From positions 1 through 64,000 of the forward strand of contig MU858084.1 in assembly GCA_033297075.1 (NCBI GenBank): a stretch of 64,000 nucleotides of DNA. Direction: 5' to 3'. Below, piece after piece: positions 14,555 through 17,566 of the stretch. The translations under genes and the position numbers were made by a program. Each line of letters opens with the position of its first letter. Position 1 is the first letter of the stretch. The DNA is from Rhypophila decipiens (taxonomy: Eukaryota; Ascomycota; Sordariomycetes; Sordariales; Naviculisporaceae). The notes below the pieces were generated by a model, which was not told the origin of the DNA, searched no databases, and was given only the letters and a program-made list of their open reading frames with translations.

Positions 14555-17500
14555 TCACTCCTGCCAAGTCACCTTCCTCTCACGCAACAAGCTCACCATG
14601 CCCATAGGCAGCAGGCCTGGGTCGACAATGTTCAGCCCTCCGAACCTCTGCACCACCTCGGGCCCATACATCATGCTGATCCACGTCCAATACAAATCCG
14701 TCCTGGACCAGGTGATGCTCTGCAGCCCAGGCTGACTCTTTAGCTTTTCCAACGCAGGCCTGATCCGATGGGCGTCTACCGCGACTCCCCTCTGCACCGG
14801 ACTGTCCATGAGTTGATCGAAAACGGATGCGAGCTGGGCCTCGCTGCCGTCGAAAGTGAGCTCGTCTCGGTAACGCATGAGCTCGTCGAATGACGGGAAG
14901 TTCTTGCGGTCCACGGCCGTCTCGGGTTGCCAGTCAGGCTCGTCGAGATCCTCGCGATCAGGGGCTACTGACCCGTTCAAGAACTTCTGCTTGGCTTTCT
15001 CATAAAACTCACGTTCCTGCTCCTCAATCACGTCGGCGAGAGTGTTTTCTTGCAGGTCATCATCGTGACGAAGCAACAAAAGGGGCACAAAAGGCGACTT
15101 CAGTTCGAGACCTCCCATCTCGACAGGGAAGAAAAGAAAGCCGTCGGGGATGTTGGTGACCCCAAAACGTCGGCTCAGTGTCTGCTTGATGTGGTCCACG
15201 ACGCTGTCAGCACTGCCGTCACCCATCTTGGAGAAGACCTCGCGCTGGATCCGGCCATGGGTGGCCAGCATCTGGTCCACGTGCTCGCGGCCGAGACATT
15301 CAGCTGGCTTCCCAAAGTTGGAGGTAAAGAAAGTAGCTGCATAGGTATTCCAGGTCTGAATAAAGGCAAAGATGCTCCGGCTGTTCTTTGGGGACTGCAG
15401 CTGGGCGCGCAGCTCATCGATATGGTCGTCAACAAGGCCGTCATCGATCTCGAATCGACCAGTCTGCGGCGAGAGCTTGAGGAAGCCCCACCTGATCTCC
15501 CCTTGCGGAAGCGCCTTGTCGATGCTGAGTGTGGTATCGGGATTAGATGAGATTCTGACAGTTCCTGTCTTGTCCGGGTTGGTGCTGGTGCATGTTACCA
15601 GTGCGAAATCCTGGACAGTCTTCCATGCCTGGACCGCAACGGAATGGTCCGAGGACCAAAACCAGACGTCGTCCAAGACTCGCCAAAGCTGCTGCCCATT
15701 GGTGGCCTGGTTGACAGAAAAGTCGAGGCAAAAGAGGGTGACTTCACCAAATACATTGCTGAGAACATGCGACCCCGGCGTGCCTCGGCGCCTCGTCCGC
15801 GGCTTGGCGTTTTCGCCGTCGCTCATCAGCTTGAGAGGCGCCTGGAGGAAGCGGGTGAAAAAGGACAGCCAGGTATCCGAAACACCAAAGAACTTGAGAA
15901 TGGCGAGAACTGTCTCATGGGGCAGTCGAGGATTCCATTCGTCGAAAGTTGAGTGAAGGGCAGTCAGCTCTCCGTCAGGCCGCGTCTTGGCCAGAATCAG
16001 GTCGGTGGAAAACATGTGCAGTATCTTCTGTTTGAGTTGCATGCGGGACTTGGGCATTTTGTCGTCGACGTCGTCATCTTCGACTTCGGATTCGTCATCG
16101 TCGCTCTCCCAGTTGTCGCGGTCCAGTGAATGCAGGTGTGAATCCGGGAGAATCCTGCGGTGCCTCTTTACTCCGCCTTGTCGGGGAACATAGTCTGAAG
16201 TACTGGGAGCGCTCTTCCTTGCGGCCTTGCCGGCGAGTGGCTTTCTGGGCGCCTTTCCACCGGTTGATTTGCGCGCCGTTTGTTTCGTGCGACCTCCCGG
16301 ACGCTGAGCATGCTGAACGTGCTGAGCATACTCAACCTCCTCCTCCCCATCAATGTCATCTTGCTCGTCGTCTATGTCCGAGATCAGCTGCGATAATGTG
16401 AAGCCTTTTCGGTAAATCCTGCGATGCGACGTCTGTACCGAAGGCCACATGCGAACTTTGCCGGCTCCCAGGTAATATCCCAGTCGACGCTTCGTGTCTT
16501 GGCTGATCTGGTGACGACCCTTCTTCCAAACTCCTCGTTTGGCGAAGAATCTGCTTTGGAGAGCGTCTTTGAAAAAGGTTGACCACTTGACGCCAATGTA
16601 CTGCAAGAAGATGGCTTGAAGTAGATCCTCGTGCATGTGCATGTTGAAGGCACCGTTGATCATGCGTCTTTCCTCAATGGGCACGCCGCTTGGTCCCCAT
16701 GACCACGTGTCGAGCGCTGCCATGCGCATATTAAGAACATCAGCAACCTCCTTCAGAATCATTGGGTTCCCCACAAAGTCGTTGAGGACCTCCCGTTTCT
16801 CGTTGGAGAGCAGGCCTGACGACATGAGGCCCTTGATCGTCCAAACCAAGGTATCATTGTTGAACTGGCCCGACAGGAGAAGTTGGCGTTCATGCTCGGC
16901 CACGTCGGAGCGAAGTCTGCCGAGTGCCTTGAAGACTGACTGCCTCTCGGGCTCGGGCCTCGACTTTCCCTTGGCCGGCATCCCAAACAGAGAGCCCAAG
17001 TACTGCTGAAGCCGGGGAACATTGACCTTGGCTGGCTCAAAGACGCTCATCTCCCATTCGATACGGGATTGCAGGCGAGCAGACTTGTCGACGTTCTCAA
17101 AGCCGCTCTCCTGCATCTCAACGTCGCCCCCATCTTGATCGGAGTCTCCAGAAAGCCAGTCGTTGACGAGCTGGGCGCAGAGGGATGCATATTCATACTT
17201 GAGCGACTGCTTGTCAAGATGGTGGCGGAGGCGTTGCTCCCATTCGGCGAGCGCCGCAGCCGGAACCGAAGGATCGTTGCGAGCCTGTGCAACGAAGCGT
17301 TCGATGTTGTACAACTCGGACTCAAGCTCTCCTGCGCTGCCCGGACTGTTGCCAACATGCTTCGTGCTCCTAATCGAGAAACACTTCATGACACCCTCGA
17401 TGAGGGCGACCAGGCGCTGGATAGCATCAGCGCCTTGCTCCTCAGCCGACCCAAGGGCTGCCTTCTTGGCCGCCTCAAAGGCAGTACGGCGCTTGGAGAG

Positions 17501-17566
17501 TTCTTGAAGCTTGGTGGTGGTGATCTCGTTCAGGGTCTCGGAGAAGACACTACCGGAGGTGGCCAT
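14555..17566 (-). CDS. rvt: RVT: reverse-transcriptase-related cellular protein (rvt family), carrying an internal histone H3 tail copy
   Basis: Single exon, 1003 aa from the ATG at 17566 ([16 protein letters not shown]); an upstream in-frame ATG at 17677 would add 37 residues. The N-terminal about 250 residues are helical, with coiled-coil-like heptads ([16 protein letters not shown]). The RT core has a motif A-like region ([21 protein letters not shown]), motif B ([17 protein letters not shown]), motif C with the catalytic Asp pair in [11 protein letters not shown] (D632, D633), and IRWGFLKL further on. These match the single-copy rvt genes known from fungi and other eukaryotes. For the Neurospora RVT, family knowledge is that it is multimeric and polymerises NTPs in vitro; the cellular role is unknown. 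It is not a retrotransposon: there are no integrase, protease or flanking repeats. Residues 426-471, between the N-terminal part and motif A, copy the histone H3 tail (separate entry). Confidence 0.88.
16154..16291 (-). other. Histone H3 N-terminal tail mimic inside the rvt protein
   Basis: In the rvt reading frame, residues 426-456 match histone H3 residues R2 to T32 at 29 of 31 positions. The stretch begins [17 protein letters not shown]; the two differences correspond to Q19P and S22G. A seven-residue insert (SDYVPRQ) follows, then GGVKRHRR, corresponding to H3 G33-R40 with K36 kept. Equivalents of H3 K4, K9, K14, K18, K23, K27 and K36, with S10 and S28, are all present. The copy is internal, so it lacks a free N-terminal alanine. 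It is flanked by acidic stretches, [14 protein letters not shown] before and [12 protein letters not shown] after. The match is read directly; any function such as binding or being modified by histone enzymes is inference. Confidence 0.92.

Follow-up and report, generated by a model that had tools for sequence, protein, structure and literature searches.

Most of the known histone mimics are viral proteins, bacterial effectors, or one of a few animal proteins. The AutoN motif of ISWI resembles the basic patch of histone H4. Prp8 has a reverse transcriptase (RT)-like fold without polymerase activity, and we know of no histone mimic in Prp8. EZHIP, according to the passages of PMC6513997 that deal with it, is a non-histone protein with a tail-like peptide, and acts as an H3 K27M-like inhibitor of a chromatin enzyme, PRC2. 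In ISWI, AutoN is tied to recognition of the H4 tail and works with an acidic motif, AcidicN (AutoN passages of PMC5305211). The rvt genes are described, in the rvt passages of a meeting report (PMC10680173), as stress-response genes with non-templated polymerization; an earlier reading of the DNA described here (the original prediction) had stated that RVT proteins have no known cellular role, a statement that is now dated. A loop of RVT proteins, loop 2a, is described in the RVT passages of PMC5718144. The rvt passages of PMC10680173, PMC3520738, and PMC5718144 make no mention of histones in connection with rvt, and among the papers listed by a full-text literature search, no title or abstract opening describes histone tails in RVT proteins, with the founding rvt paper (Gladyshev and Arkhipova 2011) lying outside this comparison.

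Here, we describe an RVT-like protein of the ascomycete Rhypophila decipiens that carries histone-tail sequence in a disordered loop, together with its relatives. Like the products of the domesticated RVT genes, it combines an RT fold with a large loop that precedes the motif-A strand (loop 2a in the RVT passages of PMC5718144); unlike them, its clade lacks the motif-A Asp in 236 of 236 rows and often carries histone-like blocks. EZHIP also has an H3-tail-like peptide in a non-histone protein, and its peptide occupies a histone-tail-binding enzyme (EZHIP passages of PMC6513997). However, EZHIP is K27M-like and mammalian, whereas the RVT loops show up to ~30 H3 residues and part of H4, with K27 kept in the R. 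decipiens protein. ISWI likewise has an H4-linked motif and an acidic part inside a larger protein (AutoN and AcidicN passages of PMC5305211), but is a remodeling ATPase. Prp8 shares the RT-like fold and differs in architecture.

The window, i.e., the whole stretch of DNA that was analyzed, comprises 64,000 nucleotides of R. decipiens, from a source genome of 45.7 Mb. The features discussed below are as follows.

14555..17566, minus strand: RVT-like ORF, a single intact frame of 1003 aa plus stop (ORF translation; nearest relative 74% identical)
16055..16327, minus strand: hypervariable loop, residues 414–504 (pLDDT <50 over 422–497)
16199..16291, minus strand: H3-tail block, residues 426–456 (29/31 identical to H3 R2–T32)
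16178..16198, minus strand: spacer SDYVPRQ, 7 residues, 457–463 (translation)
16142..16177, minus strand: H4-tail-like block, residues 464–475 (9/12 to H4 13–24)
16055..16123, minus strand: acidic loop end, residues 482–504 (loop alignment and translation)
15923..15970, minus strand: motif-A strand and following residues, 533–548 (residue 540, at 15947–15949, is Thr; Asp in both paralogues)
15668..15673, minus strand: motif C Asp632–Asp633, kept (alignment and translation)

Both the structural model and its fold matches place an RT fold in the RVT-like protein. The core of the model is a confident RT fold and the loop is predicted to be disordered; the nearest folds are those of R2, LINE-1, and group II intron RTs, DRT9, and telomerase, among others. 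One further match is the yeast spliceosome core chain 5lj3_A, which we take to be Prp8. The label “RVT” in the original prediction is consistent with this fold, and the Pfam RVT_1 match of the protein is sub-threshold (12.1 bits, with a cut-off of 29.6 bits); the name as used here rests on that prediction, the fold, and the published description. The structure alignment took in 74 of the 132 clade rows gathered by then. The disordered residues 414–504 form a large insertion that precedes the motif-A strand (533–541). We infer the numbering of RT motifs 2 and 3 and, likewise by inference, identify this insertion with the described “loop 2a” before RT motif 3. In a whole-protein search, the nearest relative among the 120 matches listed of 499 is a Naviculisporaceae (Sordariales) protein with 74% identity at 100% query coverage. 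Two RVT paralogues were found in the source genome, on contigs C4 and C158, both without a histone block; the paralogue L028 lies ~9 kb from an H3-H4 gene pair (C158:46506-61292).

The original prediction reported that residues 426–456 match H3 R2–T32 at 29 of 31 positions. This identity was reproduced in the intact ORF, taking the source genome's own H3 as the reference, with mismatches at Q19 and residue 22. That H3 gene is ordinary (C158:46506-46874), and H4 matches lie on C84 and C158. When H3 was used to query the source genome, the RVT loop block was matched at E 9.5e-9, and PDB histone H3-type chains match residues 425–474 with E of 1.4e-9 to 2.5e-8 (60 matches listed of 136). The H3 block score lies at the floor of a test against 300 shuffles of its own loop (p 0.003). 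The part after the spacer has a different assignment from the one originally given. GGVKRHRR had been taken as the equivalent of H3 G33–R40, but GGVKRHRR(ILPD) fits H4 13–24 at 9 of 12 positions, against 6 of 12 for H3 33–44, and the H3 33–40 reading was dropped. Hence, the lysine that had been called K36 is better named the H4 K16 position, while the other lysines listed originally (K4, K9, K14, K18, K23, and K27) and both ARKS motifs are kept. The H4-like block, the missing motif-A Asp, and the mimics in unrelated fungal proteins go beyond the original prediction.

Relatives were gathered in three ways. First, the whole-protein search (499 matches, 120 listed) gave, with the window protein, 121 rows, of which 116 were scored. 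Second, a search with the loop (residues 418–480) gave 171 matches, 120 listed, mostly with histone domains; among those listed, it added RVT proteins, including some from Leotiomycetes and Dothideomycetes, and some filed as “histone H3.” Third, a loop-blind search with residues 490–960 of a Dothideomycete relative, P0196, gave 854 matches, 120 listed, of which 104 were new and 103 were scored. A block was called at p ≤ 0.002 against 999 shuffles of each loop. Loops of <30 residues were left unscored (P0055, P0057, P0073, P0074, and P0078 in the 121-row set, and P0256 in the 104-row set). P0055, P0057, P0073, and P0074 are Fusarium gene models without the loop, and their close relatives have the block; in these four, the absence of the loop probably reflects a predicted intron in the gene model.

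In the whole-protein set (116 scored rows, window included, from 120 matches listed of 499), an H3 block was called in 81 rows, an H4 block in 55, either in 101, and both in 35. The comparison of orthologues that had been suggested with the original prediction thus places histone-like sequence, of the H3 or the H4 kind, in this disordered loop for 101 of the 116 scored rows. The new loop-blind rows (103 scored, from 120 listed of 854) gave 54 with H3, 2 with H4, 54 with either, and 49 with neither. Given the 49 rows without a block, not every clade member has the mimic, and with two rows showing H4, the H4 part belongs mostly to the whole-protein set. Sixteen loop-blind matches were already in the other sets and are not counted among the 104; an H3 block is present in 15 of them. 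Among 11 rows picked by their H3 block, all 11 have H3 and 2 have H4. Summed over the three sets, a block is present in 166 of the 230 scored rows. With Ser taken at position 22, 39 of 236 loops match at least 24 of the 31 H3 tail positions. The remainder of the loop varies greatly among the rows, both in length and in sequence. Most of these counts are of related sequences, with kinship allowed for only by parsimony counts on a FastTree tree. What emerges is a widespread fungal family whose otherwise variable loop keeps up to ~30 H3 residues, joined in many members by part of H4.

The presence of histone-tail sequence in these non-histone proteins exceeds chance. At a score of ≥45, H3 is found in 58% of 219 loops, compared with a mean of 0.6% and a maximum of 2.7% for 20 permuted H3 tails; in the equivalent control for H4, the figures are 22% and 0.02% of loops. 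H2A and H2B tails gave 0 of 230 loops at p ≤ 0.002, so the histone likeness is not mere basic composition. Chance composition was therefore rejected, on the shuffles, the permuted tails, and the control tails.

The blocks also turn over. A FastTree tree computed from sequences with the loop removed requires at least 42 changes in whether H3 is present and at least 23 for H4 (21 and 22 on a smaller tree), counts that are inflated by applying a p threshold to degrading sequences. In one Fusarium group (P0016, P0017), an H4 core sits in register inside the H3 block (TGAKRHRKILASKACRKSAPSTGGV). Both RHR[KR] and SAP[STA] occur in 23 of 127 loops; RHR[KR] precedes SAP[STA] in 8 of these and follows it in 15. 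This exchange of H3 and H4 at one fixed place suggests that selection acts on histone likeness as such; with such imitations in most of the relatives compared, the loop is probably under selection to resemble a histone.

The RT core itself also departs from that of the paralogues. At the ungapped equivalent of motif A, the two paralogues read RSDFKWFG and QTDIQWFG, while the window protein reads HSTFDEWN. The motif-A Asp is found in 0 of 236 clade rows, which have V (139), T (27), A (16), E (14), S (10), and others at this position. Motif C is largely retained (D632 in 228/236 and D633 in 194/236). Because the motif-A Asp is absent throughout the clade and kept in both paralogues, the clade RVT protein is a probable pseudo-enzyme, likely to have lost polymerase activity. 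The 14 rows with E at motif A include a near-root branch with Lachnellula rows, and 13 of 236 rows combine this E with motif-C Asp632, so some clade members may keep activity. A PDB sequence search with the paralogue L027 matched no RT, and the motif-A assignment thus rests on the ungapped two-paralogue alignment and the end of strand 533–541. For a bacterial rvt comparison of the motif-A Asp, contig scans gave no relative.

The original prediction held that the modifiable lysines are the conserved point. Across relatives, this was not borne out in detail: retention is 550 of 602 aligned cells for the arginines (H3 R2, R8, R17, R26; H4 R17, R19) and 471 of 943 for the lysines (H3 K4 to K27; H4 K8, K12, K16, K20), with lysine giving way to R in 164 cells, to M in 100, and to Q in 66. 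Within H3, retention is high for R26 (125/133), R17 (122/139), P30 (107/117), Q19 (107/136), A21 (118/139), S22 (106/137), and A29 (106/123); the lysines range over K4 75/100, K9 67/115, K14 58/126, K18 48/137, K23 87/135, and K27 68/128. Where an H4 block is present (59 rows), 58 rows retain R17, all 59 retain R19, and 55 retain H18, while K16 is K in 22/59 and M in 28/59, and K12 is kept in 3/50. Both the H4 block and the residue pattern at this finer level were first seen in the very rows used for the counts, the loop-blind rows excepted. The parsimony rate is 0.19–0.27 changes per row for eight K sites, compared with 0–0.12 for six R sites (K-versus-R rank test, p 0.0007 without H4 K12, with H4 K8 not included; p 0.0028 with K12). 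At K sites, 100 of 472 substitutions are to methionine, compared with 82 of 732 elsewhere (Fisher p 3.4e-6, with kinship ignored). A K-to-M “oncohistone trap” was considered as a general rule and not adopted: the commonest M sites are H3 K18 (28/137) and H4 K16 (28/59), and the EZHIP-type K27M is rare (Met in 7/128 rows), with Lys at K27 in the window protein.

The pattern of kept arginines and of lysines replaced by R, M, or Q favors a docking or decoy peptide over a substrate for lysine marks. Arginines, small residues, and prolines that are kept, lysines that are free to vary, disorder, and acidic stretches together fit a mark-independent docking or blocking peptide. Beside the observed mimicry, its conservation and turnover, the missing motif-A Asp, and the predicted loop disorder, we therefore set one tentative reading, to which we give a little under an even chance: the RVT protein of the ascomycete clade is probably inactive, and its disordered loop is a histone-tail mimic, likely a docking or decoy peptide. 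Under this proposal, polymerase activity would have been lost in the clade, and the long disordered loop would display H3-like and H4-like tail peptides, with acidic stretches alongside and, in R. decipiens, both peptides in tandem. The loop would dock to, or decoy, one or more proteins that bind unmodified H3 or H4 tails. Recognition would run through the arginines and their small-residue context (PRxQLASxAARxSAP of H3 and GGxxRHR of H4), needing no lysine modification and often disallowing it. The protein would be nuclear and bound to a tail-binding factor. Many PHD fingers and WDR5 are readers that require the H3 N-terminus. Since the block is internal and has no free A1 amino group, such readers would not be expected to engage it in their normal manner. 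If the docking proposal is right, the histone-like loop offers a concrete handle on the cellular role of the puzzling domesticated RT genes, and >200 related sequences, in which H3 K4/K9/K14/K18/K23/K27 and H4 K16 are changed to M, R, or Q, amount to a natural mutational scan of what a tail binder needs.

The original prediction proposed instead that H3/H4 methyltransferases and acetyltransferases modify the loop, so that mark readers are recruited and RVT is tied to chromatin state. The window protein would suit this, with all six lysines up to K27 and both ARKS motifs, and K4 (75/100) and K23 (87/135) are kept in many rows. For the clade, however, we consider it unlikely: K18 (48/137), H4 K16 (22/59), and H4 K12 (3/50) are often lost, the frequent R, M, and Q replacements cannot carry lysine marks, and the overall retention of lysines (471/943), far below that of arginines (550/602), indicates that lysine marks are not what most of the clade preserves. 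The lysine-mark model is possible for species with all lysines, such as R. decipiens.

Some stretches resemble tails other than those of histones, and some lie outside RVT proteins. The source genome's ribosomal P proteins end in EKEESDDDMGFGLFD, in two places, and (D/E)DMGFGLFD-like stretches resembling this P-stalk end occur in RVT loops P0258, P0259, P0260, P0277, P0294, P0316, and others. Two VIT-VWA proteins, P0178 (Clonostachys rosea) and P0198 (Xylaria bambusicola), begin with MARTKQTAR and have two internal H3-like stretches each; P0178 also has an H4-like stretch (GKGLGVGGALRHRRIL). The source genome's VIT-VWA locus L061 (C178:55500-60500) has no histone block; its main frame contains FG nucleoporin-like stretches, and part of a different frame has YSPGSP, resembling the Pol II CTD, and an MGFGLSD stretch (SDECMGFGLSDG), resembling the ribosomal stalk end. 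The DUF7025 protein L012 of the same genome (C228:46764 onward) has an N-terminus equal to the first 13 residues of mature H3; no histone block was found in the other DUF7025 loci fetched from this genome.

Integrated decoys of plant immune receptors provide a model for how such sequences might work. A fast-changing loop that imitates disordered tails of essential machinery (H3, H4, the ribosomal P-stalk, the Pol II CTD, and nucleoporin GLFG) would catch or sense parasite proteins. In its broadest form, in which the dead RT and, independently, VIT-VWA and possibly DUF7025 proteins of filamentous ascomycetes make up a rapidly exchanging tail-display system of integrated decoys, baiting or sensing attackers or titrating host factors, we regard this idea as unlikely. 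As an account of the RVT loop alone, i.e., a bait platform, it is improbable. It would gain from the at least 42 (H3) and at least 23 (H4) presence changes on the tree, and from the histone-like or stalk-, CTD-, and FG-like stretches in the unrelated VIT-VWA proteins. Counts in 236 loops also lie above shuffle means for P-stalk-like ends (14 versus 0.04), YSPxSP (6 versus 0.00), and [GS]LFG (10 versus 0.10), but these patterns and the query panel were chosen after the loops had been viewed, with only the query letters of the stalk end taken from sequence data. By alignment (230 loops, p ≤ 0.002), the panel gave 27 loops for the P-stalk, the weaker of them plain acidic runs only, 2 for the CTD, and 4 for GLFG, and acidic or basic control queries gave similar numbers (beta-tubulin 12, H1-like 6, alpha-tubulin 5); other controls gave RGG 2, Hsp70 1, and ubiquitin 1, with ~0.5 expected by chance. 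Against these controls, the stalk alone clearly stands out, through its MGFGLFD core. The acidic parts were also considered as tubulin-tail mimics, and this found no support, since at a score of ≥30 tubulin tails matched no better than permuted queries, despite the p ≤ 0.002 matches for beta-tubulin (12) and alpha-tubulin (5) in 230 loops.

Histone tails are import signals, and they could have been kept in the loop for nuclear import, or as basic patches for nucleic-acid binding. KRKR-like stretches before the block in many loops would agree with this, but charge alone would not keep Q19, A21, S22, A29, and P30. Moreover, lysines matter for histone importins and are often lost here, which leaves this explanation as improbable as the bait platform. 

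The origin of the block bears on the last alternative. Among the codons of the 29 shared residues, 11 are identical to those of the source genome's H3 gene, compared with 12.28 expected when drawing from the rest of the RVT gene. The codon mismatch is at chance level, so the amino acid sequence is what is preserved, and a recent copy of the H3 gene was ruled out. The H3 block would then be old and constrained, or re-made by selection. While the sequence alone makes it plausible that the block once derived from H3, a functionless insertion or gene conversion from the H3 gene, or an assembly chimera, is extremely improbable given the chance-level codon agreement, the intact reading frame, and a block at the same place in relatives of three fungal classes, the last of which makes a chimera in itself very unlikely. 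The original prediction had raised absence from all close relatives and lack of constraint as grounds for doubt; the block proved common to relatives and constrained.

Three Lachnellula RVT proteins (P0172, P0174, and P0175) are named “histone H3” in public records, apparently from the mimic, and annotation pipelines should be warned that some RVT-like proteins are filed in this way. Beyond the fungi discussed above, a 696-aa protein of Oikopleura dioica (P0161) has three H3-tail-like stretches, one of them N-terminal. Lastly, two metagenome SET-domain proteins (P0176 and P0205) have a near-perfect H3 tail, possibly as a built-in substrate or inhibitor.
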